From assembly GCF_000384395.1 (NCBI RefSeq), contig NZ_ARWE01000001.1:3508501-3572500 (forward strand): a stretch of 64,000 nucleotides of DNA, given 5' to 3'. How positions within the stretch are numbered: the stretch's first letter is position 1; the number at the start of each line of letters is the position of its first letter. The notes under the pieces were generated by a model. That model was given only the letters and a program-made list of their open reading frames with translations, did no database searches and was not told the DNA's origin. Made by a program: the position numbers and the translations under genes. This document shows positions 4,962 through 57,274 of this stretch, piece by piece. This DNA is from Geopsychrobacter electrodiphilus DSM 16401. GTDB lineage: Bacteria > Desulfobacterota > Desulfuromonadia > Desulfuromonadales > Geopsychrobacteraceae.

Positions 4962-5519
4962 ATGAATCTGGAACTCTGTCTTTCCTTCAGCAGACTGCTG
5001 AGCTATCCGAAAACTCAGGTCAAGACCCTTGCTGCCGACTGTTACCGGCAGCTGAAAGATTTTGACCCGCAGGCCGCGGTGGCCTTCGCCCCCTTTAGCA
5101 CTTTTATCGAGCAGCAGAAGCTGCCGCAGATCGAAGAGCTCTATACCTCGGCCTTTGACCTGCAGGCGCTCAGCTTTCCCTACGTCGGCTACCAGCTATG
5201 CGGCGAAAGTCAGGCGCGCACGATGTTTTTGATGAAGCTGCAGGAGATCTACACTCAGCAGAATTTCTCCTCTGAGGGTGAGCTGCCCGACCACCTGAGC
5301 GTCATGCTGCGCTTCATCGGCACAGTCCCCGACCCACAGGGGAATCAAGAGATCATTCGCGATGGGCTGTTGCCAGCGCTGGAGAAAATTATTCAGGGGA
5401 TCGAAAACCAACAACACCCCTACCGCCAGCTGCTGGTGTCCCTGCAGACCTATCTGACCAACCTTATCGCAACTGAACTGCCTGAAAGCGCACCGCAGAA
5501 GGAGGTATCCCATGGCTGA
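4962..5519 (+). CDS. narJ: Nitrate reductase assembly chaperone NarJ
   Basis: Cytoplasmic chaperone (TorD/NarJ type) that holds NarG until the molybdenum cofactor is inserted; 185 residues. The helical N-terminal NLELCLSFSRLLSYP and central QALSFPYVGYQLCGES are typical of the family. The ATG at 4962, 2 bp after the narH stop, is preferred over an in-frame GTG at 4953 that overlaps narH. It overlaps narI by 8 bp, so translation is probably coupled. The function rests on position and family resemblance; no enzymatic motif is expected. Confidence 0.93.
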   Translation: MNLELCLSFSRLLSYPKTQVKTLAADCYRQLKDFDPQAAVAFAPFSTFIEQQKLPQIEELYTSAFDLQALSFPYVGYQLCGESQARTMFLMKLQEIYTQQNFSSEGELPDHLSVMLRFIGTVPDPQGNQEIIRDGLLPALEKIIQGIENQQHPYRQLLVSLQTYLTNLIATELPESAPQKEVSHG

Positions 5520-6189
5520 TCTGATCCTGTTCGGCGTCTTTCCCTATGTCGCGATAGCTCTGGCGATCGGGGTCGGCATCTACCGCTACTGCATCGACCG
5601 CTACTCTTACTCTTCGCAGTCTTCACAGTTTCTCGAGAGCCGCGCGCTCTTCTGGGGCTCGATCCCCTGGCACTACGCGATTCTGCTGATTCTGATCGCG
5701 CATTTTCTGGCCTTTCTGGTCCCGGCCGGTTGGGGCGCTCTGCTCGGTTCACCGGCGCGCCTGGTCTTGCTCGAAATCACCGGCATGGCGCTCGGCATCA
5801 CCACCCTGATTGCGCTGGTGATTCTGATCTTCCGCCGCATCATCAACTCGCGTATCAACGCCGTGACCAGCAGTATCGACTGGCTACTGCTTTTCGTACT
5901 TCTGCTGCAAGTTGGCACCGGGGTCTATATCGCCATCAGCCTGCGCTGGGGCGGCGTCTGGTATGTCCACACCATTTCCCCCTGGCTCTGGTCGCTGGTC
6001 AAACTCGATCCGCAAATCAGCTATCTGGCGAACATGCCATGGATCGTCCAACTGCATGCGGTCAACGCCTTTCTGCTGGTGGCGATCTTTCCCTTTTCAC
6101 GTCTGGTACACGTGGTCAGCATCCCCCTCGGCTATCTAGGTCGTCCCTACCAGGTCGTGGTCTGGTATCGCCAGCGCCGCAGTAGCTGA
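5512..6189 (+). CDS. narI: Respiratory nitrate reductase gamma subunit NarI (cytochrome b)
   Basis: Membrane dihaem cytochrome b that oxidises quinol and anchors NarGH to the inner membrane; 225 residues with five hydrophobic segments. Candidate haem ligands are H54, H64, H182 and H200; the 18-residue spacing of the last pair and 10-residue spacing of the first equal those of E. coli NarI (56/66 and 187/205). A GGAGGT Shine-Dalgarno (5501-5506) lies inside the end of narJ and the genes overlap by 8 bp. It completes a canonical GHJI set. Confidence 0.97.
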   Translation: MADLILFGVFPYVAIALAIGVGIYRYCIDRYSYSSQSSQFLESRALFWGSIPWHYAILLILIAHFLAFLVPAGWGALLGSPARLVLLEITGMALGITTLIALVILIFRRIINSRINAVTSSIDWLLLFVLLLQVGTGVYIAISLRWGGVWYVHTISPWLWSLVKLDPQISYLANMPWIVQLHAVNAFLLVAIFPFSRLVHVVSIPLGYLGRPYQVVVWYRQRRSS

Positions 6190-6254
6190 AGATCAGTTTT
6201 CTCAGGGGAATGAGGCTCCCTTTACTCTGAATTCAGACCGAAAAGGTTTTCTTT

Positions 6255-7781
6255 ATGATGGAACAAAAGGCGACGGCCACTTCGCACAAGATGCTGTTTC
6301 TCAACACCCTGGCCTTTACCGTCTGCTTCGCCGCCTGGATGTTCAACGGCGTGTTGGTGACCTTTCTGGCCGATAATCAGATCTTCAACTGGGGACCCAT
6401 TGAGATCGGCTGGCTGATGGGGATTCCGGTGTTGACCGGTTCGCTGTTCCGTCTGCCGGCCGGGATGCTGACCGACAAGTTCGGCGGCAAGCCGGTCTAC
6501 GGCACGCTGCTGTTTATCTGCGCCATCCCCATGTACCTGCTGTCGTACGCCGACAGCTTCACGACCTTCGCCCTGTGCAGCTTCGGCTTCGGCCTGGCCG
6601 GGGTCAGCTTTTCGATCGGCATCGCCTTCTCCTCGGTCTGGTACCCACGCGAACGTCAGGGCACGGCGCTGGGGATCTTCGGCGCCGGCAACGCCGGTGC
6701 CGCCCTGACCACCATGTTTGCCCCGACCCTGCTCTACCATCTGACCAGCAACGGCGCCAACCTTGAGGGCTGGCGGCAGTTGCCGACCTACTACGCCATG
6801 GTGCTCGCCGCCATGGGAGTGATCTTCTTTCTCTTCGCCGAGAACAAAAAACCGGCCTCGTCAACCAAAACCTTCACCCAGATGCTGACGCCCTTAAAAA
6901 ATGTGCGGGTCTGGCGTTTCGGGCTCTATTACTTCCTGGTCTTCGGTTGCTTCGTCGCCTTCTCCCAATGGCTGGTCCCCTACTTCGTCAATGTCTATTA
7001 CCTGCCGCTGGTCACTGCCGGACTCTTTGCCTCGGCCTTCAGCCTCCCATCCGGGGTGATCCGGGCGCTGGGCGGCTGGCTCTCCGACAGGTTCGGCGGC
7101 CGCTCTGTCATGTACTGGGTGCTGGGCGCCTCGGTCCTTATCAGCTTTCTGGTGACCGTGCCGAAGATGGAAGTCTACTCCCCTGGCCGCGGCGTCATGG
7201 CGGGCAAAGGCGGAATCGTCACGGCGGTCAGCGCCCAATCGATCAGCGTCGGTGACCGGGTCTACAAGCTGAAGCTCAAGCCCCAGGATCTTGGAACCTT
7301 CGACGACAAAATGCTGATCCTGCCGACCAAGCAGGCCTGGCAGGAAGCGGCGGTCGAGGTCGGACAGACGGTGAAGAAGAAGGAGCTGCTGGCCAAGGGG
7401 GTGACGCGCATCTTCTTTCAGGCCAACGTCTGGATCTTCGCCATCCTCATCATCCTGCTCGGCAGCACCTGGGGTATCGGCAAGGCTGCCGTTTACAAGC
7501 TGATTCCTGATTATTTTCCCGATGAGGTCGGGGTGGTCGGCGGCATGGTCGGCGTGCTCGGGGGCTTGGGTGGTTTCTTCTGCCCGATCATCTTCGGTTA
7601 TCTGCTGGAATATACCGGGCTCTGGAGCAGCTGCTGGATCTTCATGTGCGGGCTGTCACTGGTCTGCCTGCTCTGGATGCACCTCACAGTCAGTAAACTG
7701 ATGAAAGAAAAACACCCGAAAGATATGAAAAAGATCGAGCGAGATAAGCATAAAATCATCGGAGAAGCCCTCAAGGAGTAA
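6255..7781 (+). CDS. narK: NarK-type nitrate/nitrite transporter with a soluble insert
   Basis: Major facilitator superfamily transporter, probably importing nitrate or exchanging it with nitrite for the reductase encoded upstream; 508 residues. N-terminal helices carry the NarK-like FRLPAGMLTDKFGG loop (cytoplasmic MFS motif) and SFSIGIAFSSVWYP; the C-terminal half has GIGKAAVYKLIPDYFP..VGVVGGMVG. Between two helices, at about residues 302-390, sits an extra hydrophilic stretch of roughly 80 residues. Its pattern (GGIVTAVSAQSISVGDRV ... VEVGQTVKKKELLAKG) resembles lipoyl/biotinyl-type beta barrels, but I see no AMKM-type modification site. Ordinary NarK proteins lack this. Two ATGs (6255, 6258) are possible. 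It is followed 5 bp later by a second transporter. Confidence 0.92.
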   Translation: MMEQKATATSHKMLFLNTLAFTVCFAAWMFNGVLVTFLADNQIFNWGPIEIGWLMGIPVLTGSLFRLPAGMLTDKFGGKPVYGTLLFICAIPMYLLSYADSFTTFALCSFGFGLAGVSFSIGIAFSSVWYPRERQGTALGIFGAGNAGAALTTMFAPTLLYHLTSNGANLEGWRQLPTYYAMVLAAMGVIFFLFAENKKPASSTKTFTQMLTPLKNVRVWRFGLYYFLVFGCFVAFSQWLVPYFVNVYYLPLVTAGLFASAFSLPSGVIRALGGWLSDRFGGRSVMYWVLGASVLISFLVTVPKMEVYSPGRGVMAGKGGIVTAVSAQSISVGDRVYKLKLKPQDLGTFDDKMLILPTKQAWQEAAVEVGQTVKKKELLAKGVTRIFFQANVWIFAILIILLGSTWGIGKAAVYKLIPDYFPDEVGVVGGMVGVLGGLGGFFCPIIFGYLLEYTGLWSSCWIFMCGLSLVCLLWMHLTVSKLMKEKHPKDMKKIERDKHKIIGEALKE

Positions 7782-7786
7782 TAACT

Positions 7787-9391
7787 ATGTCGATCAATCT
7801 GGAAAAATGGGATGTCGAGGACGAGAAGTTCTGGGAATCCGAAGGCAAGAAGATTGCCAACCGCAACCTGTGGATTTCGATCCCCAGCCTGCTCTGCGGC
7901 TTCGCCGTCTGGCTCTACTGGGGGATCATCACGGTACAGATGATCAACCTCGGCTACCCCTTCAGCCAGTCGCAGCTCTTCACCCTGTCGGCGATTGCCG
8001 GTCTGACCGGCGCGACCCTGCGTATTCCGAGTTCGTTCCTGATCCGCATCGCCGGTGGCCGCAACACTATTTTCTTTACCACCGCCCTGCTGATGATCCC
8101 GGCGGTCGGCACCGGTATAGCGCTGCAGAACATCAACACCCCGATTGAGGTCTACTACCTGCTCGCCCTGCTCTCCGGGTTCGGCGGCGGCAACTTCGCC
8201 TCATCGATGTCGAACATCAGCTTCTTCTTCCCGAAGAAGGTCCAGGGGACCTCCCTCGGCCTGAATGCCGGCTTGGGGAACTTCGGCGTCACCACCATGC
8301 AGATTCTGATTCCGCTGTCCATGACCTTCGGCCTGTTCGGCGGCAAGTCACAGACCCTGATCAACACCAGCGGCACCTTGATCGGCAAAATCCCGGCGGG
8401 GACCGAGACCTACATCCATAATGCCGGGTATATCTGGCTGATCCTGCTGATCCCCCTGGCCTTTGCCGGCTACTTCGGCATGAACAACATCAAAACCAAG
8501 ACGGTCACCCCCAACCTGAGCTCAACCGGCAAGTCCTTCGCCATGATCACCGGACTGCTGCTCATCGCCTTTGTTACCGCCGTGGCCGGACTCTATCTGA
8601 TGTTGCCCCCACCTATCGGGCTCGGACTGCTGAGCAAGTGGATCGTGTTGCCGCTGGTGATCGCCGCCACGGTCTACGGCATGAAATACCTGACCAGCGG
8701 CGGACTGCGTGAAAACCTCGACCGCCAGTACAAGATCTTCAACAACAAGCACACCTGGGCCATGACCATCATCTACACCATGACCTTCGGTTCCTTCATC
8801 GGCTACTCGGCGGCCTTCGCGCTGTCGATCAAGGTTATCTTCGGCTTCTCGCACATCATGACCGCTGGCGTCATGACCCATAACACCATCAACCCCAACG
8901 GTCCCAGCGCCCTGATGTTCGCCTGGATGGGTCCCTTCATCGGCGCGCTGATCCGCCCGGTCGGCGGCAAGATCGCCGACAAGCTGGGCGGCGCCATCGT
9001 CACCCAGTGGGTTTCGATCGTGATGATCGTCTCGGCCCTCGGCTGCGCCTATTTCATGAAGGCAGCCTACGCCTCCGCCACCCCGGAGACGGTCTTCGTC
9101 CCCTTTTTGATCCTGTTCATCATCCTCTTCGCCGCGACCGGTGTCGGCAACGGCTCGACCTTCCGCTCGGTGGCGATGATCTTCAACGCCGAACAAGCCG
9201 GCCCAGTCTTGGGTTGGACCTCGGCGGTCGCCGCCTACGGCGCTTTTATCATCCCCAAGGTCTTCGGCGAACAGATCAAGGCCACCACCCCCGAAAATGC
9301 CCTCTACGGCTTCGCGATTTTCTACTTCGTCTGCCTGGTGCTAAACTGGTGGTTCTACACGCGCAAAGGCGCCTACATCCAGAACCCGTAA
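7787..9391 (+). CDS. narK: NarK-type nitrate/nitrite transporter (second copy)
   Basis: A second MFS nitrate/nitrite transporter, 534 residues, with a short N-terminal cytoplasmic extension. The first conserved Arg sits in LRIPSSFLIRIAGGRN and the nitrate-signature Gly-rich segments are GNFASSMSNISFFFPK and GLNAGLGNFGV; a second signature is seen in the C-terminal half (GVGNGSTFRSVAMIF). It has no soluble insert, in contrast with the upstream copy. Two different NarKs beside one reductase is a common arrangement in which one may act as nitrate/proton symporter and the other as nitrate/nitrite antiporter; which is which cannot be read from sequence alone. Confidence 0.95.
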   Translation: MSINLEKWDVEDEKFWESEGKKIANRNLWISIPSLLCGFAVWLYWGIITVQMINLGYPFSQSQLFTLSAIAGLTGATLRIPSSFLIRIAGGRNTIFFTTALLMIPAVGTGIALQNINTPIEVYYLLALLSGFGGGNFASSMSNISFFFPKKVQGTSLGLNAGLGNFGVTTMQILIPLSMTFGLFGGKSQTLINTSGTLIGKIPAGTETYIHNAGYIWLILLIPLAFAGYFGMNNIKTKTVTPNLSSTGKSFAMITGLLLIAFVTAVAGLYLMLPPPIGLGLLSKWIVLPLVIAATVYGMKYLTSGGLRENLDRQYKIFNNKHTWAMTIIYTMTFGSFIGYSAAFALSIKVIFGFSHIMTAGVMTHNTINPNGPSALMFAWMGPFIGALIRPVGGKIADKLGGAIVTQWVSIVMIVSALGCAYFMKAAYASATPETVFVPFLILFIILFAATGVGNGSTFRSVAMIFNAEQAGPVLGWTSAVAAYGAFIIPKVFGEQIKATTPENALYGFAIFYFVCLVLNWWFYTRKGAYIQNP

Positions 9392-10230: not shown

Positions 10231-11661
10231 TTATTCCGCTTCGGCCTGAAGCTCGTCGCTCTCAATCTCGCAGCCGCTGAAACGGATCATGAAGGCTGCG
10301 AAGCTGGCGGCGGCAACCAGCAGTCCGACGACCGATGCAACCTGCAGCGACAGCCCGAAACCGATCTTGGCATAGGCCAGGTAGGTGGCGGCGACGGCGG
10401 TCATGAAGGTCGCCGGGATGGTGCCGATCCAGTGGTTGCGGCCATGCCGGATCATGTAAGCTGCGCCGGCCCAGAGCACGATGGTCGCCAGGGTCTGGTT
10501 GGCCCAGCCGAAATAACGCCAGATCACGCCGAATTCGGCCTGCGAAATGATGATCCCGACGATGAACAGCGGGATCGCCAGCAGCAGCCGCTTGGCCATG
10601 GATTTCTGCTCAAAATTGAAAGTGTCGGCAATAATCAGTCGCGCGCTGCGGAAAGCCGTATCCCCGGAAGAGATCGGCAGGATGATAACCCCGATGATCG
10701 CCATCAGCCCACCGATCGGGCCGAGCAGGGTGGTGGAGATTTCATTGACCACCGCCGCCGGGCCGCCGTGGCTGAGCGCCACCCCCAGCGCATCGGAGCC
10801 ATGATAAAAGGCTATGCCGAGAGTCGCCCAGATCAGGGCGATGACCCCTTCACCGATCATTGTCCCGTAAAAGAGCTTACGCCCGTCACGCTCGTTGCCG
10901 ACACAGCGGGCCATCAACGGCGACTGGGTGGCGTGAAAACCACTGACCGCGCCACAGGCGATAGTGATGAACATCAGCGGCCACATCGGTAACCCCTTGG
11001 GATGCAGGTTGGCCAGGGTCATCTGCGGGAACAGATCATACCCCTGATAGAGCAGAGCGCTGGTCAGGCCGACAGCCATGAAGATCAGGATCGCGCCGAA
11101 CAGCGGATAGATGCGGCCGATGATCTGGTTGATCGGCAGAATGGTTGCCAGGAAATAGTAGCCGAAGATGAGAACAACCCAGACCGGCACCGACAGCGGC
11201 GAAAGCTTGGCCAGCAGACCCGCCGGGCCGACGACAAAGACCACCCCGACCAGCAGCAGCAGGATAATGGAGAAGACACGCATGAACTGCTTGAAGCCGT
11301 TGCCGAGCTGATAACCGACCACGTCGGGGATACTCTTGCCGCCATGGCGGATCGAGAGCATCCCGGAGAAATAGTCATGCACAGCGCCGCCGAAGATGCA
11401 GCCGAAGACAATCCACAAGAGGGCGGCAGGACCGTAGAGCGCGCCGAGGATCGGGCCGAAGATCGGGCCGAGTCCGGCAATATTGAGCAGCTGAATCAGG
11501 TAGATTTTGCGCGGCGACATCTCGACATAATCGACGCCGTCGGCCATGGTTTTTGCCGGGGTCAAACGGTTCGGTTGCGGGCCGAAGGCGCGGTCGACAA
11601 TCTTGCCGTAGACGAAGTAGCCGACGATCAGGGCGGCCACGCAGGAAAAGAAATACAACAT
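10231..11661 (-). CDS. cstA: CstA/BtsT-family peptide or pyruvate transporter
   Basis: Multi-helix inner-membrane transporter of the carbon starvation (CstA) family; E. coli members CstA and BtsT (YjiY) take up pyruvate and peptides. The 476 residues include the family core GPIFGPILGALYGPAALLWI, GAVHDYFSGMLSIRHGGKS and PISSGDTAFRSARLI. It is shorter than the ~700-residue E. coli proteins, as in other short CstA homologues. The start ATG at 11661 is chosen over an in-frame upstream ATG at 11715 because GGAGG lies 7 nt before it. The next genes upstream on the same strand encode a BtsS/BtsR-like pair, the same partnership that controls btsT in E. coli, supporting pyruvate as substrate. Confidence 0.92.
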   Translation of the reverse strand: MLYFFSCVAALIVGYFVYGKIVDRAFGPQPNRLTPAKTMADGVDYVEMSPRKIYLIQLLNIAGLGPIFGPILGALYGPAALLWIVFGCIFGGAVHDYFSGMLSIRHGGKSIPDVVGYQLGNGFKQFMRVFSIILLLLVGVVFVVGPAGLLAKLSPLSVPVWVVLIFGYYFLATILPINQIIGRIYPLFGAILIFMAVGLTSALLYQGYDLFPQMTLANLHPKGLPMWPLMFITIACGAVSGFHATQSPLMARCVGNERDGRKLFYGTMIGEGVIALIWATLGIAFYHGSDALGVALSHGGPAAVVNEISTTLLGPIGGLMAIIGVIILPISSGDTAFRSARLIIADTFNFEQKSMAKRLLLAIPLFIVGIIISQAEFGVIWRYFGWANQTLATIVLWAGAAYMIRHGRNHWIGTIPATFMTAVAATYLAYAKIGFGLSLQVASVVGLLVAAASFAAFMIRFSGCEIESDELQAEAE

Positions 11662-11733
11662 AAAAAAACCTCCATCCGTTTGAGTTTGGCCAAAAGTAAG
11701 CATTTCTTCGGTCAAATAAAATAGCGGATGGGG

Positions 11734-11762
11734 TCAACGGTCGGATCTCGAAAGTGACCGGC
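11734..11762 (-). promoter_or_regulatory. Candidate LytTR (BtsR-like) direct repeat before cstA
   Basis: On the minus strand GCCGGTCA, 13 bp, ACCGTTGA gives two half-sites 21 bp apart, the spacing used by E. coli BtsR. The match to ACC(A/G)CT is imperfect. A TTGACC direct repeat with 22-bp period (11710-11715 and 11732-11737) overlaps it. It is weaker than the sites at 52808 and 55356. Confidence 0.3.
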
Positions 11763-11818
11763 GGTCTGGAGCAGGTGACAGGTTTTAAGGGGGAAGAATC
11801 AAGACAAGCTGGCGATCC

Positions 11819-12529
11819 CTAGAGCTCGAAGGTCTCCTTCAATGGCCTGACGTAGCGTCGGCTGACCGGCAGCTGGCGACCGGAGCGGGTCTGAATTTCG
11901 GCGAGCCCCCCTTCCAGAAAACGGATCTCGTCGATGAGCGCGGGGTTGATCAGATACTGCTTGTGACAAGGCACCAGGCTGGTGCGGGCGGCCAGGGTCT
12001 TGAGGGTCAGATCGGTAAAAAACTCCCCCTCAGCGGTCACCAGGTAAACCCCGCCGAAATCGGAGCGCACGTATTCTACGCTCTGCGGGTCGATCAACTT
12101 GACACGGTTGGCCAGGCAGCAGGGGATCCGTTTCAGCTCCGCCTGCGGATAAGAAACGGCGCGGCCGCCGGCATCCTCCTGCTTCAGCTTGTCGATGGTC
12201 TTGCGCAGGCGCTCGGGATCGACCGGTTTCAGCAGGTAGTCGAGGGCCTGCTCCTCGAAGGCTTTGACCGCGTACTGATCGTAAGCGGTGACAAACACGA
12301 CGCGCGGCAGATGCTTTTCATCCAGCATGCTGAGCAATTCAAAACCATTTAAGACCGGCATATCGACGTCCAGAAACAGCACCTGCGGTTTCTCCCGGTT
12401 GATCAGGCGCAAAGCTTCCATGACGTTGCTGCAGCTGCCGACAATTTCGAAGCTGGCGCTCGCTTCCAGCAGCCGCTGCAGCTCCTTGCGCGCATGGCTC
12501 TCATCATCCACGATCAGGGCACGCATCAT
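11819..12529 (-). CDS. btsR: LytTR-family response regulator, BtsR-like
   Basis: A 236-residue DNA-binding response regulator. The N-terminal receiver has LIVDDE and the phosphoacceptor in LFLDVDMP (D55); the C-terminal LytTR domain (about residues 135-236) contains VKLIDPQSVEYVRS and SRRYVRPLKE. It overlaps the kinase gene upstream by 4 bp, so they are co-translated. E. coli BtsR activates btsT in response to pyruvate; the neighbour cstA is the obvious target here. A paralogue is encoded at 54620-55330. The symbol is assigned by close resemblance, not by experiment. Confidence 0.9.
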   Translation of the reverse strand: MMRALIVDDESHARKELQRLLEASASFEIVGSCSNVMEALRLINREKPQVLFLDVDMPVLNGFELLSMLDEKHLPRVVFVTAYDQYAVKAFEEQALDYLLKPVDPERLRKTIDKLKQEDAGGRAVSYPQAELKRIPCCLANRVKLIDPQSVEYVRSDFGGVYLVTAEGEFFTDLTLKTLAARTSLVPCHKQYLINPALIDEIRFLEGGLAEIQTRSGRQLPVSRRYVRPLKETFEL

Positions 12530-14205
12530 AACTCTCCCCCTTCGGGCAACGGGATCCGCACCATGACCCGGGTGTACTGCTGCGGCACGCAGGAGACCTC
12601 GATGCCGCAGTCCGCCCCGAACAGGTTTTTGATCCGCTTATCGACAATATTCATCCCCAGCCCTTCGCCGCAGGGCTTGTCGCCGTAGGTGCCGGCATCA
12701 TCCTCGATCATGAGTTCAGCATGCCCGGCGACCCGCTGAACCGAGATTGTCACCTGGCCGCCTTCCAGCACCTGCGAGATCCCATGCTTGATCGCGTTTT
12801 CGATCAACGGCTGCAGGGTGAAGGTCGGGATCTGCAGCGTCCAGAGCGCGGGATCGATCCGGGTGATCACCTTGAGCCGCTCCTCGAAGCGCGCCTCTTC
12901 GATCATCAGGTAGGAGTGAACATGCTCCATCTCCTCCTTGAGACTGACCAGCTCGCCCGAACGCATCAGGTTTTTGCGGAAGAAGTTAGAGAGCTGCAGC
13001 TGCAGCTCGCAGGCGCGCTGTGCATCGCTGCGGGTGATGGATATGATGGTGTTCAAGGCATTGAACAGAAAATGCGGGTTGACCTGGGCCTGCACCAGCT
13101 TCAGTTCGGATTGGACGAGCAGATTCTTCTGCTCGGCGTAGCGCGCCCGCAACAGCTGATCCGAGAGCAGATTGGCCAGCCCCTCACCGAGGGAACGATT
13201 GAGGTTGAGAAACAGCTTGCTCTTCGGTTCAAACAGGATGATGGTGCCGATCACCTCCTGCTCGACGTGCAACGGCACCACCAGTTCGGAACCGAGGGGA
13301 CAACCGGCCAGACGGGTACAGCTGAAGGGGATGTTGAAACCATCGGCATAGCATACCTGATTGCTCTGGATCGCCCGCAGGGTATATTCCGAGACGAGCG
13401 CCAGTCCCGGCAGATGATGATCGGCCCCCAGACCTGAAAAAGCTAAAATCCGTTCGCGATCGGTGATGCAGACGGCCCCCACCTGGGTCTCCTGATGGAT
13501 AATCTGGACCAGTTGCCGGGCGCTCTCCGGGTTGAACCCGGAGCTCAGGATCTCCAAGGTGCGATCGGCGACCTTGAGCGCGCGGGCCGAGAAGTGAGCC
13601 CCAAAGCGATCATAGGCGTTGCGCTGATCGCGAATAATGCTGATGAACAGCGCGGCCCCGGCGGAATTGGCAAGCATCATCGGCAGAGCGATGGTCTTGA
13701 CCAGTCCCAGCGCCTGATCGAAGGGTTTGGCCAGCAGCAGAATAATCACCATCTGCATTGCTTCGGCGTAAAAGGTGGCACCCAGGGCGACTAAGGGGAG
13801 GTAGATCTGCTCCTGACGGCCGCGGCGCACCAGATAAAGATGCACCAGCCCGCCGATCAATCCTTCGACGGTTGTCGATATCCCGCAGGCCTCGGCAGTA
13901 AAACCGCCGAGCAGATAACGGTGCAGGCCTCCGGTCAGGCCGGTTGCAACTCCCAGTAGCGGGCCGCCAATCAGCCCCGCCAGCACCGGCCCGATGGCCC
14001 GCGTATTCGCGATGGCATCCTGGATCGGCAGACCGAAATAGGTCCCGAGAATCGAAAAGGAAGAAAAGATCAAGTAGAGCAAAAACTTATGCTTGAAGCG
14101 CAGATGCTCGCTGGTCAGCGGTCGAAAGGCCGGAGACTTGGTGAACAGGTAAGCGATAACCAGGAAGATAGACATCTGCTGGAGCAGATGAAAAATCAGG
14201 TTCAT
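12526..14205 (-). CDS. btsS: LytS-type sensor histidine kinase, BtsS-like pyruvate sensor
   Basis: A 559-residue membrane kinase (E. coli BtsS: 561). It has an N-terminal 5TM-LYT membrane domain (residues 1-190), a GAF-like segment (about 220-340: VGAVCITDRERILAFSGLGADHHLPG) and a HisKA-type HPHFLFNALNTI-like region (QVNPHFLFNALNTI) with a C-terminal ATPase (LQPLIENAIKHG, EGLGMNIVDKRIK). The membrane domain keeps R69, R96, C107 and S110, which align with a constant offset of 3 to Arg72, Arg99, Cys110 and Ser113 of E. coli BtsS, reported to be needed for pyruvate binding. Its stop overlaps the regulator start. A second copy lies at 52944-54623. Confidence 0.92.
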   Translation of the reverse strand: MNLIFHLLQQMSIFLVIAYLFTKSPAFRPLTSEHLRFKHKFLLYLIFSSFSILGTYFGLPIQDAIANTRAIGPVLAGLIGGPLLGVATGLTGGLHRYLLGGFTAEACGISTTVEGLIGGLVHLYLVRRGRQEQIYLPLVALGATFYAEAMQMVIILLLAKPFDQALGLVKTIALPMMLANSAGAALFISIIRDQRNAYDRFGAHFSARALKVADRTLEILSSGFNPESARQLVQIIHQETQVGAVCITDRERILAFSGLGADHHLPGLALVSEYTLRAIQSNQVCYADGFNIPFSCTRLAGCPLGSELVVPLHVEQEVIGTIILFEPKSKLFLNLNRSLGEGLANLLSDQLLRARYAEQKNLLVQSELKLVQAQVNPHFLFNALNTIISITRSDAQRACELQLQLSNFFRKNLMRSGELVSLKEEMEHVHSYLMIEEARFEERLKVITRIDPALWTLQIPTFTLQPLIENAIKHGISQVLEGGQVTISVQRVAGHAELMIEDDAGTYGDKPCGEGLGMNIVDKRIKNLFGADCGIEVSCVPQQYTRVMVRIPLPEGGEL

Positions 14206-14390
14206 CCGTTTGTGACCCTTCTTTTTGCTGGGGAGAATATCAGCGCACTATTGTAGCAGACTTAAATCTATTTCTGTGCCCTCTTGACGAAAGCACCAAT
14301 CCCACCCCTCACACATTCCCTTGTTAAAATTATCCCCGCCGTTAAACCGTCGCAATGGTATTATGCATGTTCACCTTGAGGATTTCGCAA

Positions 14391-15137
14391 ATGAAAGACC
14401 TTCTCCCGTTTGACATTGCACCCCAGCCTGACGAAATCACCTGCGGTCCGACCTGTCTGCAGGCCATCTATCAATATTATACGGACCCGATCGGGCTGAC
14501 CCAGACCATTGACGAAGTGCCGATGCTCGAAGGGGGCGGGACCCTGGCGGTGCTCCTCGCCTGTCACGCCCTGCAGCGCGGCTATCGTGCAACCATCTAC
14601 ACCTACAAATTGCAGATCTTCGATCCGACCTGGATCGATCTGCCCAGAGAGGTTCTGGTTGATAAGCTTCTCGCCCAGGCGGCCTTCAAAAACGATCCCA
14701 AAATCCAGGTGGCAACCGACGCCTATCTCAAATTTATCGCCCTCGGCGGGCAGCTGAAGGCACAGGACCTGAACGGTAGCCTGATCCGCGGCTTTCTGAA
14801 ACAGGGCACGCCGATCATCGCCGGGCTGTCGGCGACCTTCCTCTACCGCAGCGCTCGCGAATTCGGCCCCAATTGTGACTACGACGATGTGCGGGGAGAG
14901 CCATCCGGCCACTTTGTCGTGCTGCATGGCTATGATCGTGAAGCGCGAACCGTGCATGTCGCAGATCCGCTCCAGAGCAACCCCATGACCGGAACCCGCA
15001 AATACACCGCCAGCATCGACCGGGTGATCAATGCTATCCTGCTCGGAGTGCTGACCTACGATGCCAACCTGCTGATCATTCAGCCTGCCAAGGAGAAAAA
15101 ATCACATGCCCAGGCCCACCCTGATCGTCGTCGATGA
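14391..15137 (+). CDS. C39-like cysteine peptidase/transglutaminase-fold protein
   Basis: A 248-residue cytoplasmic protein resembling the peptidase C39-like family. Catalytic candidates are the Cys in EITCGPTCLQAI, the His in PSGHFVVLHGYD and the Asp in VADPLQSNP, the usual Cys-His-Asp order. The ATG at 14391 has GAGG 9 nt upstream and is preferred to upstream in-frame ATGs at 14355 and 14367. It overlaps the next gene by 32 bp and begins a four-gene operon with two amide-bond ligases and an amidohydrolase. It may process or transfer a peptide made by the ligases; there is no ABC transporter domain, unlike bacteriocin C39 peptidases. Confidence 0.8.
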   Translation: MKDLLPFDIAPQPDEITCGPTCLQAIYQYYTDPIGLTQTIDEVPMLEGGGTLAVLLACHALQRGYRATIYTYKLQIFDPTWIDLPREVLVDKLLAQAAFKNDPKIQVATDAYLKFIALGGQLKAQDLNGSLIRGFLKQGTPIIAGLSATFLYRSAREFGPNCDYDDVRGEPSGHFVVLHGYDREARTVHVADPLQSNPMTGTRKYTASIDRVINAILLGVLTYDANLLIIQPAKEKKSHAQAHPDRRR

Positions 15138-16590
15138 CCCAGCCCAGTGGCCCCTGGATATTCCCGGTGTCGAACGGGTGCCAGCCCGTTCCTACCTGAC
15201 CGATCCCCGCTATCTTGAATTGAAGGGCGCGGAAGTTTACAACCTCTGCCGTTCCTATCGTTACCAGAGTATCGGTTACTATGTTTCGCTTTTGGCAGCA
15301 GCCCGCGGCCACAAACCGAGCCCGAGCGTAACCGCCGTGCAGGACCTGAAATCCCAGACCATCATGCGCATCGCCTCGGATGACCTACAGGCGTTGATTC
15401 AGAAGAGCCTCGAGACGATCCAGTCTAAGGAGTTTGTGCTCAGCATCTACTTCGGACGCAACGTCGCCAAACGCCACGACCGGTTGGCCGCACAGCTCTT
15501 CACCCTGTTCCAGGCGCCGCTGTTGCGCGCCAATTTCGTAATCGGTGAGAAGAGCGGCAAATGGTCACTGTCCAACCTGAGAGCGATCAGCGCCAGCGAC
15601 ATCCCGCCCGAGCATCAGCCGTTTGTACTCGAAGTCGCACAGGAATACTTCTCCGGCAAGCGCCGCCGCATCGCCAAAAAAACCGGTAAGCGCTACGACC
15701 TGGCGATTCTGACGAATCCGGCTGACCCCGAACCGCCGTCTGATGAAAAGGCGCTGAAACGTTTCGTGCGCGCCGCTGAAACCGTCGGTTTCTCGACTGA
15801 ATTCATCACCCGCGACGATTTTGCCAAACTCGGTGAGTTCGACGCCCTGCTCATCCGCGAGACGACCAGCGTCAACCACCACACCTACCGCTTCGCGCGC
15901 AAGGCGGTAGCCGAAGGGCTGGTGGCGATTGATGATCCGGAGTCGATCCTCAAGTGCACCAACAAGGTTTTCTTGGCCGAGTTGATGGAGCACAACAATA
16001 TCCCGGCCCCCAAGACGCTCATCGTCCATCGTGACAACCGCGATCAGGTCGCCGAAAAACTCGGCCTGCCGGTAGTCTTGAAACAACCGGACAGCTCCTT
16101 TTCGCAGGGGGTGGTCAAGGTCAGCGCGCTGGCGGAGCTGAAACCGACGATCAACAAAATGCTCGAAAAATCCGATCTTATCATCGCCCAGGAATATCTG
16201 CCGACCGACTTCGACTGGCGGATCGGGGTCTTTGACCGGCAGCCGATCTACGCCTGCCGTTACTACATGGCCAAGGGACACTGGCAGATCCTTAAACGCG
16301 ACAACAACGGAGTCAAGAACGACGAGGGGCGCTACGACACGCTTCCGGTCGAGCATGTCCCAGGTGCGGTCATCAAGCTGGCGTTGAAAATCTGCAACCT
16401 GATCGGTGACGGCCTCTACGGGGTCGACCTGAAACAGTCGGGGAGCAAGGTCTACGTCATCGAGGTCAACGACAACCCGAACCTCGACGCCGGGGTCGAA
16501 GATCAGGTGCTCAAGGATGAACTCTACCTGCGGATCATGCGCGTCATGTTTCGGCGGGTAGAGAAACGCAAGGAAGGATTCACGGCATGA
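15106..16590 (+). CDS. RimK-like ATP-grasp ligase with N-terminal RLAN-type domain
   Basis: A 494-residue ATP-grasp amino-acid ligase. The first ~200 residues (VYNLCRSYRYQSIGYYVSLLAAARGH) match the N-terminal domain typical of RimK-like ligases in these clusters; the ATP-grasp domain follows (about 270-480), with LPVVLKQPDSSFSQGVVKV for ATP binding and GVDLKQSGSKVYVIEVNDNPNLD for Mg binding. RimK proteins add Glu to a carboxylate. Overlaps with both neighbours (32 bp and 4 bp) show one operon. The acceptor is unknown; the adjacent GCS2 ligase and amidohydrolase suggest a small peptide or modified amino acid rather than ribosomal protein S6. Confidence 0.9.
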   Translation: MPRPTLIVVDDPAQWPLDIPGVERVPARSYLTDPRYLELKGAEVYNLCRSYRYQSIGYYVSLLAAARGHKPSPSVTAVQDLKSQTIMRIASDDLQALIQKSLETIQSKEFVLSIYFGRNVAKRHDRLAAQLFTLFQAPLLRANFVIGEKSGKWSLSNLRAISASDIPPEHQPFVLEVAQEYFSGKRRRIAKKTGKRYDLAILTNPADPEPPSDEKALKRFVRAAETVGFSTEFITRDDFAKLGEFDALLIRETTSVNHHTYRFARKAVAEGLVAIDDPESILKCTNKVFLAELMEHNNIPAPKTLIVHRDNRDQVAEKLGLPVVLKQPDSSFSQGVVKVSALAELKPTINKMLEKSDLIIAQEYLPTDFDWRIGVFDRQPIYACRYYMAKGHWQILKRDNNGVKNDEGRYDTLPVEHVPGAVIKLALKICNLIGDGLYGVDLKQSGSKVYVIEVNDNPNLDAGVEDQVLKDELYLRIMRVMFRRVEKRKEGFTA

Positions 16591-17822
16591 GTGAACGGGC
16601 GCCGCTACACCTCTTCGAAGGCTACGGCATCGAGCTTGAGTACATGATCGTCGACCGCGATTCCCTGGCGGTCAAACCGGTCACCGACCGGGTGCTGCAG
16701 CAGGTTTCCGGGGAGATCGTCAACGAGATCGAGCGCGGTCCGCTGTGCTGGTCAAACGAACTGGTGCTGCATGTCATCGAGCTGAAGACCAACGGCCCGG
16801 CCCCTGGCCTCAAGGGCCTTGCCGCGCAGTTCCAGAGCGGGATCGCGCAGGTCAATGAACAGTTGGCAGGGCTTAACGCGCGTCTGCTCGGCACCGCGAT
16901 GCACCCCTGGATGGAGCCGCACCGCGAAACCGTCCTCTGGCCGCACGAGAACAGTCCGATCTATGACGCCTACAACCGGATCTTCGGCTGTCAGGGGCAC
17001 GGCTGGTCCAACCTGCAGAGCATGCACATCAACCTGCCCTTCTCAGGTGATGCCGAATTCGGGCGACTGCATGCCGCTATCCGCCTGGTCCTGCCGCTAT
17101 TGCCGGCGCTGGCCGCCAGTTCGCCGATCGTTTCAGGCGAGGCGACCGGCCTGCTCGACAACCGGCTGGAGTTCTATCGCAACAACCAGAAGATGATCCC
17201 CGAAATTGCCGGGCAGGTCATCCCCGAAGCGGTCTTCACCCGCGCGGACTATGAGGACCAGATTCTGGCGGCGACCTACCGCGCGATCGCCCCGCATGAT
17301 CCACAGAATGTGCTGCAGGAGGAATGGCTCAACTCAAGGGGCGCGATTGCTCGCTTCGAACGCAGCGCCATCGAGATTCGTCTCCTCGATATTCAGGAAT
17401 GCCCCATGGCCGATCTGGCGATTGCCGCTCTGACCATCGCTCTGATTCGGGCGCTGTGCAAGGAGTGCTGGATCGGGCTTCATCACCAGCAGGAGATCGC
17501 GGTCGCGCCGCTCGCCGAACTCTTTAAAAGAACCCTGCAGGGGGGTGGCGATGATCTGATCGACGTGCCGGACTATCTGTCCTGCTTCGGAGTCCTTGAA
17601 GAGCGGATCAGCGTCGCCGATCTCTGGCGGCGAATCTACGAACAGCTGGAAAGCGACATCCCCATGGAATACCGCGCAGCGCTGGAGGTGATTCTGCACA
17701 CTGGCCCGCTGGCCGGACGGATCCTGCAGGCGTTGCCGCAAGGGTTCAGCCAGGCGGAGCTTGCAGCTGTCTACCGCCAGCTGGCGGATTGTCTGCACCA
17801 GGGGGTAATGTTTCATGGCTGA
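16587..17822 (+). CDS. Glutamate-cysteine ligase family 2 (GCS2/YbdK-like) ligase
   Basis: A carboxylate-amine ligase of 411 residues. The start FEGYGIELEYMIVD has the Glu-rich metal/ATP motif of glutamine synthetase-fold GCS2 proteins; LELKTNGP-like VIELKTNGPAPG, MHINLPFSGDAEFGRLHAAIRLVLPLLPALAASSP and ARFERSAIEIRLLDIQECP follow in family order. It overlaps the ATP-grasp ligase by 4 bp and the amidohydrolase by 8 bp. Classical glutathione synthesis is unlikely because no dedicated glutathione synthetase is present; it more likely joins Glu or a related acid to an amine in a cassette-specific product. Confidence 0.88.
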   Translation: MSERAPLHLFEGYGIELEYMIVDRDSLAVKPVTDRVLQQVSGEIVNEIERGPLCWSNELVLHVIELKTNGPAPGLKGLAAQFQSGIAQVNEQLAGLNARLLGTAMHPWMEPHRETVLWPHENSPIYDAYNRIFGCQGHGWSNLQSMHINLPFSGDAEFGRLHAAIRLVLPLLPALAASSPIVSGEATGLLDNRLEFYRNNQKMIPEIAGQVIPEAVFTRADYEDQILAATYRAIAPHDPQNVLQEEWLNSRGAIARFERSAIEIRLLDIQECPMADLAIAALTIALIRALCKECWIGLHHQQEIAVAPLAELFKRTLQGGGDDLIDVPDYLSCFGVLEERISVADLWRRIYEQLESDIPMEYRAALEVILHTGPLAGRILQALPQGFSQAELAAVYRQLADCLHQGVMFHG

Positions 17823-30937: not shown

Positions 30938-32467
30938 ATGTACGAATTTCTCGTCAATAAGACGGCTAGCTACAAAAATGACATTCTCTCCGGCCTGACA
31001 GTTTCGCTGGCGCTGGTACCCGAAGCGGTCGCTTTCGCCTTCGTCGCCGGTGTTCAGCCCCTGGTCGGTCTTTATGCCGCCTTTATGGTCGGACTGATCA
31101 CCGCGGTTCTGGGTGGCCGACCGGGGATGATCTCCGGGGCGACCGGTGCGCTGGCGGTGGTGATGATCGACCTGGTCGCCACGCATGGCGTCGAGTATCT
31201 GTTTGCGACCGTGGTGCTGATGGGGATCATCCAGATCAGTGCCGGGGTGCTGCGTCTGGGCAAGTTTATCCGCCTGATTCCGCATCCGGTGATGCTTGGT
31301 TTTGTCAACGGTCTGGGGATTGTCATCTTTCTCGCCCAACTCGGCCAGTTCAAAATCGCCGACAAGGACAACGTACTGCATTGGATGCAGGACCCGCCGC
31401 TCTATTTGATGCTCGGCCTTGTCGCCCTTACCATGGCGATCATCATCCTTCTCCCTAAACTCACCAAAGCCGTCCCCGCTGCCCTGGTCGCGATATTGGT
31501 GGTCACCGCGCTGGTCCATGGTTTCGGCCTTGACACCCGCACCGTCGGCGACCTCGCTTCATTAGCCGGAGGCCTGCCGGACTTTCATATCCCGATGGTG
31601 GTTCTAACCCTGGACAGCATCAAAATCATCCTCCCCTACGCGATAATCCTCGCCGCCATCGGCCTGATCGAATCGTTGATGACCCTGACCTTGATCGACG
31701 AAGTCACCGAAACCCGTGGTCGCGGCAACCGCGAATGCATCGGTCAAGGCGTCGCCAATGTCGTGACCGGTTTCTTCGGTGGCATGGGCGGTTGCGCCAT
31801 GATTGGTCAGAGCATCATCAACGTCAATTCGGGTGGACGCGGACGCCTATCAGGGATTGCGGCGGTGCTCTTTCTGCTCAGCTACATTCTCTTCGCTTCG
31901 GATCTGATCGAGATGATTCCGCTGGCCGCACTGATCGGCGTGATGTTTATGGTGGTAGTCGGAACCTTCGCCTGGTCGAGCCTGCGCATCCTGCATAAGA
32001 TCCCTCTTACAGATGCCCTGGTCCTGGTCCTGGTTTCAGCGGTCACCGTCTTTACCGATCTGGCCATCGCCGTCGCCATCGGTGTGATCGTATCGGCGCT
32101 GGTCTTCGCCTGGCAGAACGCGCGGCGCATCTATGCTGAAATTTCAACGGAAGCAAACGGGACAAAAACCTATTGCCTGCATGGCCCCCTGTTCTTCGGC
32201 TCGGTCCGTTCTTTCCACGATCAATTCACTCCGGCAGACGATCCCGACGAAGTGGTTATCGACTTTCAGCGCTCACGCGTCTGCGACCATTCGGGGCTCG
32301 AAGCGGTCAGCAGCCTCACCGAACGCTATCTGGGGCAGGGGAAGAAACTGCGCTTGAAACACCTGAGCGCCGAATGCCGTACCCTGCTCAGCAACGCCGG
32401 AAGCATGATTGAGGTCAACGTCATCGAAGACCCGCGCTACCGCGTGGCGCTGGATGAACTAGCCTGA
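30938..32467 (+). CDS. SulP-family anion transporter with STAS domain
   Basis: A 509-residue inner-membrane anion transporter. The opening [21 protein letters not shown] and [32 protein letters not shown] are the SulP signature; the C-terminal STAS domain (about 405-505; [21 protein letters not shown]) is cytoplasmic. Family members carry sulphate, bicarbonate or other anions; the substrate is undetermined. A clear terminator follows. Confidence 0.93.
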
Positions 32468-50660: not shown

Positions 50661-52760
50661 ATGCAACCGATTGAACAGAAAATCATCGACCTGCTCGCCC
50701 AGGGCACAAAAAAACCTTTAAGTCGGCGTGAAATTTCAGAACATCTCAACTTGCGCGGCGGAGAGCGAAAACTGCTGACCCGCTGCCTGGAACAACTGGT
50801 CAAGAGCGGAACCCTGCAGGAACGCAAAGGCGGGTACCGCTTGCGGCAATCGCAGCAGCGCACCCTGGAAGGGGTATTTTCGCTGGCGGAAAAAGGCTAC
50901 GGCTTTGTTCGACCCGATGATGCACAGGGCGAAGATCTGTTCATTCCGGCGCGGCACGTGGATACGGCGATGGACGGCGACCGGGTGCTGGTCGCGCTGG
51001 CGGTTTCCGCGCGGGACCGACGCCCCTACGCCAAGGTCATCAATGTGCTGCAGCGCGCCCACAGCCGTCTGGTCGGCCAGTACCGCATCCGCGGCAAATC
51101 GGCCCAGGTCTTTCCGCAAAATAAAAAACTCGGTGGCCCGGTTCAGGTCCCGCCCCACCCCGATGCGAACCCCGGCGATCTGGTCGAAGTCGAGATCGAG
51201 TATTATCCACACGGCGAGTTCAACGCCAGCGGGTGGATTATCGAGGTGCTGGGGGTGGCCGGCGACCCCAGGGTCGACATTGAAAGCGCGATCCGCACCC
51301 ATGGCCTGCCGCATCAATTCTCCTCGGCCGCACTGGCACAGGCGGGTCGGATCGGTGAATGCATCGACCCGGCTGAAATTGCAAGACGAACCGATCTGCG
51401 CCAGCTGCCACTGGTGACGATTGACGGCGAAACTGCCCGGGATTTTGACGACGCAGTGGCACTAAAAAAAACCGCGAGCGGCTATACCCTCTGGGTCTGT
51501 ATCGCCGACGTCTCGTATTACGTCGAACCGCAGAGCGCACTCGACAATGACGCGCTTGAGCGCGGCACCAGCGTCTATTTTCCCGGCTTCTGCCTGCCGA
51601 TGCTCCCCGAAGCCTTAAGCAACGGCATCTGCTCGCTCAACCCCGAAGAAGATCGGCTGGTGATGTGCGCCGAGCTGCAGTTCGATCTCAAAGGGAACCG
51701 CCAGCAATCCAACTTTTACCCGGCAGTGATGCGCAGCCAGGCACGCCTGACCTACACCAGCGTCGCCGCCTGTCTGGATGATCCGCAGACCTCTGAACTA
51801 CCGGCCGGCCTGATTGCGCAACTGCAACAGATGGCACAACTCGCCGCGGCATTGCGCGAGATGCGGCGCGCGCGTGGCAGTTTGGATATGGATCTGCCGG
51901 AAGTCGAGATTTTACTTGATGAGAGCGGCGCACCCTTCGAACTGATCAAGACCGAACGCACCCTGGCCCACCGCTTGATCGAGGAATTCATGCTGGCGGC
52001 CAATGAAGCGGTGGCCGAATACCTGACCCGCAAAAAACGCAACCTGCTCTACCGCATCCATGAAGAACCAGATCCCCTGAAATTGCAGGATCTGCAGCAG
52101 CTGGCCGCCGAATGCGGGGTCGGTCTGGTGCTGGGCAAAAACCTGCAGAAATCGCTGCAGCAGTTATTGCTCGATATTGCCGACAAACCCGAAGCGCGCA
52201 TGGTCAACCAACAGCTGCTGCGCAGCCTGAAGCAGGCCTGCTATGCCCCGCAGAACGCCGGCCATTTTGGCCTGGCCGCCGCCCACTATTGCCACTTCAC
52301 CTCGCCGATCCGCCGCTACCCTGACCTGATCATCCATCGCATCCTCAAACAGACCCTCGCGCCCGACCCGCACAGCAGCGCCATCTCGGAAGCGGAGCTT
52401 GTAACACTCGGGTTTGACACCTCGGCCAAGGAACGCCGGGCGATGCAGGCTGAACGTGACCTGGCTGATCTGCGCCGCTGCCAGATCATGGAGAAGCACC
52501 TGGGTGAAGAGTTTGACGGCACCATTTCATCGGTGGCGGAGTTCGGTTTTTTTGTTGAACTGGATGACCTGTTTGTCGATGGGCTGGTGCCGGTGCGCTC
52601 CCTGCAGGATGATTTTTATCATTTCGACGCGGCGCGACTTGCCCTGGTCGGCGAACGTCGCCGCCACGAATACAAGATCGGGACGCGCGTGCGGGTCAAG
52701 GTGGCCAAGGTTGAATTGGGCCGCAGACGGATCGACTTTTCGCTGATCTCCACGAAATAA
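50661..52760 (+). CDS. rnr: Ribonuclease R
   Basis: A 699-residue 3'-5' exoribonuclease. Domains in order: N-terminal winged helix (about 1-75), cold-shock OB folds (about 75-220, GVFSLAEKGYGFVRPDDAQGEDLFIP), the RNB catalytic domain with metal-binding Asp in DGETARDFDDAVAL (about 254-265) and HFTSPIRRYPDLIIHRIL, and a C-terminal S1 domain (about 615-695, FDGTISSVAEFGFFVELDDLFVDGLV). AAGGACCCT precedes the start. It degrades structured RNA. Confidence 0.97.
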   Translation: MQPIEQKIIDLLAQGTKKPLSRREISEHLNLRGGERKLLTRCLEQLVKSGTLQERKGGYRLRQSQQRTLEGVFSLAEKGYGFVRPDDAQGEDLFIPARHVDTAMDGDRVLVALAVSARDRRPYAKVINVLQRAHSRLVGQYRIRGKSAQVFPQNKKLGGPVQVPPHPDANPGDLVEVEIEYYPHGEFNASGWIIEVLGVAGDPRVDIESAIRTHGLPHQFSSAALAQAGRIGECIDPAEIARRTDLRQLPLVTIDGETARDFDDAVALKKTASGYTLWVCIADVSYYVEPQSALDNDALERGTSVYFPGFCLPMLPEALSNGICSLNPEEDRLVMCAELQFDLKGNRQQSNFYPAVMRSQARLTYTSVAACLDDPQTSELPAGLIAQLQQMAQLAAALREMRRARGSLDMDLPEVEILLDESGAPFELIKTERTLAHRLIEEFMLAANEAVAEYLTRKKRNLLYRIHEEPDPLKLQDLQQLAAECGVGLVLGKNLQKSLQQLLLDIADKPEARMVNQQLLRSLKQACYAPQNAGHFGLAAAHYCHFTSPIRRYPDLIIHRILKQTLAPDPHSSAISEAELVTLGFDTSAKERRAMQAERDLADLRRCQIMEKHLGEEFDGTISSVAEFGFFVELDDLFVDGLVPVRSLQDDFYHFDAARLALVGERRRHEYKIGTRVRVKVAKVELGRRRIDFSLISTK

Positions 52761-52807
52761 AATCCCACGCGGCAGCGTTTTCTAGCCGCAGACACCTCAC
52801 AACCTGA

Positions 52808-52836
52808 ACCACTAACCTGCTGTATAAGACCACTTA
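52808..52836 (+). promoter_or_regulatory. LytTR (BtsR-like) direct repeat upstream of second btsS
   Basis: ACCACTAA (52808-52815), 13 bp, ACCACTTA (52829-52836): two half-sites 21 bp apart. E. coli BtsR is reported to bind ACC(A/G)CT(C/T)A, 13 bp, ACC(A/G)CT(C/T)A. The match is close and the position (about 110 bp before the start) suits autoregulation. Confidence 0.6.
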
Positions 52837-52943
52837 GCATCGTTAAACTTTATGTCACCGCTGTGGCCTCAGTAGACTCTAAGTGCAGAATTTGCTACTG
52901 ATCTCTTCGGGCGGCTTGCCCCGCCCCCTTTCTGGAGCCGTTG

Positions 52944-55330: not shown

Positions 55331-55355
55331 TAAGCATCCTGTCAAATCCAAAATG

Positions 55356-55384
55356 ACCGCTTGGGCAGCAAATAGAACCGGTCA
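55356..55384 (+). promoter_or_regulatory. LytTR (BtsR-like) direct repeat upstream of dctP
   Basis: ACCGCTTG (55356-55363), 13 bp, ACCGGTCA (55377-55384): half-sites 21 bp apart, as in E. coli BtsR sites. It is about 140-165 bp before the dctP start. Confidence 0.55.
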
Positions 55385-55522
55385 GTCAGGGAGAGGTTGG
55401 TTTTCTCCGGCCAACCCCTTAAGACTGGGGGTGAGTGAAATAAAGTCCCTGCAAAGGGCTGAATCCCCTTTTTTTCGCGCACCCCTGGCGCTTATTTTAA
55501 CCTGTTCAGAGGAGAGAGAATC

Positions 55523-56611: not shown

Positions 56612-56623
56612 ACCCATGAACAG

Positions 56624-56651
56624 CCTCAGGCCCGGTGAAAAGGGCCTGAGG
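56624..56651 (+). terminator. Hairpin between dctP and dctQ
   Basis: CCTCAGGCCC (56624-56633) pairs perfectly with GGGCCTGAGG (56642-56651), followed by TTTCTC. This is likely a partial terminator giving more binding protein than membrane subunits. Confidence 0.78.
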
Positions 56652-56680
56652 TTTCTCGCAAGTAGAGAGCGCGACTCGCC

Positions 56681-57220: not shown

Positions 57221-57274
57221 CCACCAGCTCACAAGCCCGTGTGTTTTTTCTCTGTATAAAAGGATAACTCTGCC

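Follow-up and report, generated by a model that had tools for sequence, protein, structure and literature searches.

Two complete pairs of a BtsS-type histidine kinase and a BtsR-type response regulator are encoded within the window, a stretch of 64,000 nucleotides of Geopsychrobacter electrodiphilus DSM 16401 (NCBI RefSeq assembly GCF_000384395.1, contig NZ_ARWE01000001.1, positions 3,508,501 to 3,572,500), whose genome consists of 4.24 Mb in one contig. In the reading that we favour, with a probability of roughly three in four, both pairs are switches for extracellular pyruvate, which may serve a single uptake regulon with two sensor inputs. The pair K1-R1 adjoins a CstA-family gene on the minus strand (10231-14205), and the pair K2-R2 adjoins dctPQM, the operon of a tripartite ATP-independent periplasmic (TRAP) transporter, on the plus strand (52944-58567). 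The existence of both pairs, as evident from open reading frames, domains and BtsR equivalog scores, and their respective neighbours had been claimed in a preliminary description of this DNA and are confirmed here. The same description regarded them as two pyruvate-sensing systems tuned to different uptake routes. We infer with good support that two such systems are linked to two uptake routes for pyruvate or keto acids, which is the best reading because the binding pockets are intact, the linkage to transporters is conserved, boxes are present at both transporters and DctP resembles TakP, whereas the tuning finds no support in the form proposed, since the boxes are all of one type. The features underlying this argument are:

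10231-11661, minus strand: short CstA-family transporter, 476 residues from the likelier ATG at 11661; the open reading frame opens at 11715
11734-11762, minus strand: BtsR-type box GCCGGTCA-N13-ACCGTTGA 5' of cstA, 13.7 bits, rank 4 of 127,944
11819-12529, minus strand: R1, BtsR-type LytTR response regulator, 236 residues
12526-14205, minus strand: K1, BtsS-type 5TMR-LYT histidine kinase, 559 residues, pocket R69, R96, C107, S110, phospho-acceptor position H378
52808-52836, plus strand: BtsR-type box ACCACTAA-N13-ACCACTTA 5' of K2, 20.2 bits, rank 1 of 127,944
52944-54623, plus strand: K2, BtsS-type 5TMR-LYT histidine kinase, 559 residues, pocket R69, R96, C107, S110, phospho-acceptor position H378
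54620-55330, plus strand: R2, BtsR-type LytTR response regulator, 236 residues
55356-55384, plus strand: BtsR-type box ACCGCTTG-N13-ACCGGTCA 5' of dctP, 16.3 bits, rank 2 of 127,944
55523-56611, plus strand: dctP, TakP-like TRAP solute receptor with a DctP domain, six TakP ligands matched
56681-57220, plus strand: dctQ, TRAP small permease with a DctQ domain
57275-58567, plus strand: dctM, TRAP large permease with a DctM domain

The coordinates place the genes of kinase and regulator in an overlap of 4 nucleotides at both loci, and the K2 reading frame has an alternative TTG opening one codon earlier. The two kinases are 58.5% identical and, as open reading frames and alignment bear out, of the equal length ascribed to them earlier. 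Their identity to Escherichia coli BtsS amounts to 54% for K1 and 51% for K2, compared to 28-29% for both with respect to PyrS, which forms a far branch in a kinase tree containing K1 and K2, and an assignment to the PyrS type was thus rejected. The 5TM-5TMR_LYT (209 bits in K1, 188 bits in K2) and His_kinase domains (85 and 88 bits) all exceed their gathering scores. HATPase_c is found with 28.9 bits in K1, over the cut-off of 26.4, and with 20.3 bits in K2, under it, and GAF_2 (in both kinases) and GAF_3 (in K1 only) score below gathering, with the region between the domains still aligning with BtsS. The alignment with BtsS of strain MG1655 places R69, R96, C107 and S110 of either kinase at the positions of R72, R99, C110 and S113, as the preliminary description had proposed, and H378 at the position of the phosphorylated H382. 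The four pocket residues are critical in BtsS, which binds pyruvate with a Kd of 67 µM, and all tested changes of C110 or S113, even C110S or S113T, abolished expression of btsT in E. coli (PMC10653868). The regulators R1 and R2 both contain Response_reg and LytTR domains and reach 321.1 and 316.5 bits with the NCBIfam BtsR equivalog, whose cut-off is 246. Besides K1 and K2, the genome encodes a third 5TMR-LYT protein (C1:3341986), which was rejected as a BtsS-type sensor since it is of hybrid build and combines kinase function with PAS, HisKA and receiver domains.

The integrity of the pocket is reflected in the genomic neighbourhood of related kinases. Among 136 genomes of the order, including the one studied here, 30 contain BtsS-type kinases at a threshold of E <= 1e-100, amounting to 35 proteins, with two copies in five genomes. 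The pocket is readable in 34 of the 35 and reads R-R-C-S in 27 (26 aligned kinases and the contig-end fragment L046), whereas in seven it is altered to R-R-A-A (L041, L227), G-L-Y-S (L042), G-L-Y-A (L044), G-S-Q-S (L045), S-S-V-L (L047) or R-S-S-S (L217). Since these seven are 53-59% identical to K1 overall, and thus about as near as several intact ones, the conservation of the pocket in K1 and K2 exceeds what general similarity would account for. In the stretches analysed, 24 of the 26 aligned kinases with an intact pocket have a transporter nearby, which is CstA in 14 and a DctP-type TRAP operon in ten cases, compared to none of the seven with altered pocket (Fisher p 8e-6, relatedness not corrected; the table omits L228, which is without the pocket region, and the fragment L046). 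The two exceptions are L037, without a transporter nearby, and L220, where 396 bases of contig sequence follow the regulator. The CstA gene of L036 is located about 5 kb from the kinase, and in L218, L221, L222 and L223 an extra open reading frame of 224-251 residues occupies the same place between regulator and cstA, with no Pfam match in the one that was scanned (L221). Where a genome holds two copies, the second shows an altered pocket in four cases out of five, so that the genome investigated here is the only one of the 136 with two intact copies. Residues flanking the pocket differ between the two: K1 carries a Glu at the position of L108 of BtsS and K2 an Ile at T71 and a Phe at L97, each found in one of the 26 intact-pocket kinases, and it is in these residues that, judged from the alignment, a differing affinity should be sought.

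The loci with altered pockets contain other genes. Methylmalonyl-CoA-decarboxylase-like genes (mmdA-like, below cut-off) adjoin the kinases of L045 (1137-5622) and L047 (1897-8567), both with a Na+-pump beta subunit according to Pfam and with strong boxes directly after the regulator gene that are followed by a further half-site in a 21-base step; L045 also carries a TctA-type transporter nearby. In L227 (1753-5244), the R-R-A-A kinase is accompanied by a 21.3-bit box before NfnAB/sulfide-dehydrogenase-like genes, and in L217 (6369-9597) the R-S-S-S kinase adjoins a glycerate kinase gene, with no strong box after the regulator. In gammaproteobacterial BtsS-like subgroups (L182-L189), the pocket positions read R-R-C-A, R-R-C-G or R-R-G-G, and the five with a Cys carry an insert before it.

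The putative target of the second pair is a TRAP transporter with a TakP-like receptor. TakP of Rhodobacter sphaeroides binds pyruvate with a Kd of about 0.26 µM via Y100 and R177, with a cation held by Q156, E214, W215 and E240 (PMC1839085). Mapped by hand, these six ligands correspond to Y102, R179, Q158, E216, W217 and E241 of DctP, and they are invariant in the 32 receptors aligned (the one from the window and 31 from 80 loci). DctP is 37-38% identical to TakP and 68-70% identical to the proteins of the entries 5cm6 and 4pet. An AlphaFold model, with a pLDDT of 83.7 when based on the 32-row alignment and of 34.7 without alignment, superposes on 4pet, 5cm6 and TakP (2hzk/2hzl) at Z 40-44; we take the first two to hold pyruvate. 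Three further DctP relatives are encoded elsewhere in the genome, the best being 43% identical. A second TRAP operon, with a DctP about 42% identical to the first, stands beside K2-R2-dctPQM in the Desulfuromusa-type loci L029, L034 and L225, and a similar one is located far away in the genome studied here (C1:1025653); no box was found before this second operon in L029, L034 and our genome.

The putative target of the first pair is the only CstA-family gene of the genome. Its reading frame spans 10231-11715 on the minus strand, with the likelier ATG located behind a GGAGG. It scores 187.8 bits with PF02554, compared to a gathering score of 27, and 87.6 bits with the E. coli-type CstA equivalog NF011590, whose cut-off is 1188, which assigns it to the family only. 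Short CstA genes were found in six of the 20 genomes searched, 14 of which had been chosen as BtsS-positive, and in each case a BtsSR pair whose pocket is intact is adjacent or close by, a linkage that suggests pyruvate as the putative substrate of the short CstA.

The third line of evidence concerns the presumed binding sites of the regulators. An alignment of the dctP promoters of relatives gave the repeat ACCGCTTA-N13-ACCGCTTA, which matches the BtsR site consensus that we take to be ACC(G/A)CT(C/T)A-N13-ACC(G/A)CT(C/T)A, and the btsT box of MG1655 reads ACCGCTTA-N13-ACCACTCA. Compared to this consensus, the K2 box is one base off and the dctP and cstA boxes are more degenerate. A matrix built from 12 training boxes, all from other genomes, was run over both strands of the window (127,944 positions), where it ranks the boxes of K2, dctP and cstA first, second and fourth. 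The third-ranked site (31764-31792) was set aside as coding sequence, as judged by eye, with no domain search. None of 3,924 random 361-bp stretches of the window reaches 16.2 bits and nine reach 13.6, and the exact pattern ACCRCTNA-N13-ACCRCTNA has a single match in the 4.24 Mb, 5' of K2. The matrix recovers sites in promoters on which it was not trained: 12 short-cstA promoters outside our genome include seven with 19.2-26.1 bits, that of L228 scores 14.6 bits with its start moved (7.1 before), and the dctP boxes of L088, L123 and L167 score 16.2-16.8 bits. For dctP, 78 upstream regions were compared, which originate from 77 of 80 loci (L094, L100 and L116 are without upstream sequence and L132 counts twice). 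A box of at least 16.2 bits precedes the gene in all ten regions with a linked BtsSR pair, eight of them training sites, compared to one of 68 without (L109, itself a training site). The latter is a near-perfect box before dctP in a SAR324 genome (L109:2600-2628, L180), which on another contig contains a BtsS-like gene fragment with a BtsR-like neighbour.

Kinase promoters divide differently. Boxes of 14.9-20.2 bits, none of which had served for training, precede the kinase in all eight members of the K2 clade, window included, compared to a best score of 5.2 bits, and thus no BtsR-type box, at the promoter of K1. Among 13 kinase promoters of CstA-linked relatives, 11 score at most 7.7 bits, with L040 at 15.6 and L168 at 9.4 bits. 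A promoter and terminator scan of 52700-55560 revealed nothing above shuffled sequences.

The mechanism that we infer from the genes, pocket residues, linkage, boxes and DctP ligands computed here would start with external pyruvate, which would bind within the membrane domain of K1 and K2, in the R-R-C-S pocket. Either kinase would autophosphorylate on H378 and hand the phosphate to its own LytTR regulator, which in turn would bind to a direct repeat with a 21-base period and activate the neighbouring transporter, which is the short CstA for R1 and for R2 the TRAP operon, whose DctP is predicted to bind pyruvate or a close 2-oxo acid together with a cation. Given that all three boxes belong to a single type, R1 and R2 may both recognize the sites before cstA, K2-R2 and dctPQM and would then share targets in one regulon with two sensors, which we propose tentatively. 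A box is present at the promoter of K2-R2 but not at that of K1-R1, and the TRAP branch is for this reason probably self-amplifying, feeding back on its own sensor genes. As to the division of labour, published values for relatives suggest the TRAP transporter as the likelier scavenger and CstA as the bulk route, since besides the values for BtsS and TakP quoted above, the Km values of E. coli BtsT and CstA are 16.5 and 242 µM (PMC7730263); no sequence feature decides the matter.

Several observations weigh against this interpretation. Among the three boxes in the window, the one before cstA scores lowest, and four short-cstA promoters of other genomes (L036, L039, L040, L168) reach only 6.6-9.2 bits, with the 99% point of random stretches at 9.3. 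Identity between the short CstA and BtsT is as low as 30%, and the protein stays far below the equivalog cut-off. The genome of L055 contains the intact-pocket kinase L037 and no dctP box (0.6 bits). No box precedes the kinases L123, L167, L043 and L170 (at most 4.3 bits), which are linked to TRAP but not part of the K2 clade, so that the prediction of self-amplification applies to this clade rather than to every TRAP-linked pair. Looser half-sites (22 matches compared to 43 in a reversed control) and a pattern with one mismatch (10 compared to 13) are not enriched genome-wide; the search for a genome-wide regulon was consequently abandoned and we claim no target beyond the three promoters. 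Four relatives with altered pockets (L042, L045, L047, L227) keep boxes of 21.3-26.1 bits next to genes other than CstA or TRAP, and the box alone thus does not signify pyruvate. Finally, the affinity of TakP for some longer 2-oxo acids exceeds that for pyruvate (PMC1839085).

The same evidence bears on the alternatives. The two pairs could form insulated circuits with different pyruvate thresholds, K1-R1 acting on cstA only and K2-R2 on the TRAP operon only, in line with the idea of a low- and a high-affinity system raised in the preliminary description. Such insulation would fit with the location of each pair next to its own transporter and in a separate clade, with the lineage-specific changes around the pocket at the L108 position in K1 and the T71 and L97 positions in K2, and with the differences in detail between the cstA and dctP boxes of the window. 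We nevertheless regard it as unlikely, given that the promoters of R1-type and R2-type loci share the motif and its 13-base spacing, that half-sites are identical between the best cstA boxes (L219, L223) and the best boxes of dctP (L062, L063) and that, by eye, the helix surrounding the phosphorylated His looks very similar in the alignment of K1 and K2. A response of at least one sensor to a different 2-oxo or short acid in place of pyruvate, such as 2-oxobutyrate, lactate or a branched keto acid, is improbable. The breadth of TakP-type receptors, which bind several 2-oxo acids (PMC1839085), and the singular residues beside both pockets would be compatible with such a ligand; the presence of all four pocket residues of BtsS, where even C110S and S113T prevented btsT expression (PMC10653868), argues against it. 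That a duplication or transfer left K1 and K2 behind as redundant copies, with one of them non-functional in regulation, could be suspected from the patchy distribution of BtsS-type kinases (8 of 394 genomes of the phylum, the present one counted in, 30 of 136 in the order and, at E <= 1e-100, one of eight other genomes of the genus), yet it is highly improbable in light of two intact genes with pockets, phosphorylated His, regulators and promoter boxes retained and of a K2-TRAP arrangement that is kept in seven relatives.

Phylogeny is informative with respect to the origin of the two copies, which are part of separate clades, K1 together with L035 and L037 and K2 together with seven TRAP-linked kinases, both with 100/100 support. 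The copies thus give the impression of ancient lineages with separate histories of inheritance, not of a recent local duplication. On the same tree, the linkage to TRAP operons requires four gains or losses, at least two of which are forced by supported branches, and we therefore do not claim a single origin; coupling of kinase and TRAP outside the K2 clade is found in L123 (Denitrovibrio, of another phylum) and L167.

In comparison to known systems, both pairs resemble BtsS/BtsR-btsT of E. coli in the families of kinase and regulator, the four pyruvate residues, the phosphorylated His and the type of box with its 13-base spacing, and K1-R1 also in its CstA-family target, which is distant from BtsT at the identity given above. 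They differ from it by the presence of two copies in one genome, one of them next to a TRAP operon, and by the box at the promoter of K2-R2, where that of E. coli btsS scores 0.3 bits. A second LytS/LytTR pyruvate system besides BtsSR is also found in E. coli, where PyrS/PyrR (YpdA/YpdB), acting on yhjX, was argued to provide low- and high-affinity sensing together with BtsSR (PMC5552118), but here both kinases are of the BtsS type. Two BtsSR-type pairs occur in Aeromonas hydrophila, for which a search did not yield a binding motif and the targets were described as seemingly different from those of E. coli (PMC5552118), in contrast to our genome with boxes at both transporters. DctP shares its fold with TakP, 4pet and 5cm6 and the six pyruvate and cation ligands with TakP, for which control by LytS/LytTR is not mentioned in the accessible part of the respective paper (PMC1839085), unlike the TRAP operon next to BtsSR described here. 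Two-component control of a pyruvate transporter is also exerted by RpuS/R of Sinorhizobium fredii, although its sensor belongs to the SLC5/STAC family and its transporter is MctP (PMC9100948).

The BtsSR paradigm is thereby widened, taxonomically from gammaproteobacteria to the Desulfuromonadales and, with respect to targets, from pumps of the CstA type to a TRAP transporter; in the open-licence literature, in part among the top-ranked matches only, we found no case of BtsSR control of a TRAP operon. The results also lead to a sharp prediction, which is that two sensors read one shared type of regulator site. One possible, if uncertain, generalization would view BtsSR as a portable sensor cassette that has exchangeable ends but an invariable DNA address, in which, within the Desulfuromonadales, the box type stays constant while pocket and neighbouring target change together, intact R-R-C-S pockets going with CstA or DctP-type TRAP transporters and altered ones with methylmalonyl-CoA-decarboxylase-like, NfnAB-like and other genes. 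In our genome, this would result in a network of two sensors and one regulon, where K1-R1 might prime the self-amplifying K2-R2-TRAP branch. Whether and how this class of receptors changes its ligand has been left to experiment (PMC10653868), for which the natural kinases with altered pockets, some of them with the same boxes, provide a resource.

Elsewhere in the window, divergent from K1, a C39-like peptidase, a RimK-like ATP-grasp protein and one more open reading frame follow in a row (14355-17822), and a tandem pair of genes of the major facilitator superfamily (MFS), NarK-like in appearance, is located after a narI-like reading frame, as judged by eye (5512-9391).

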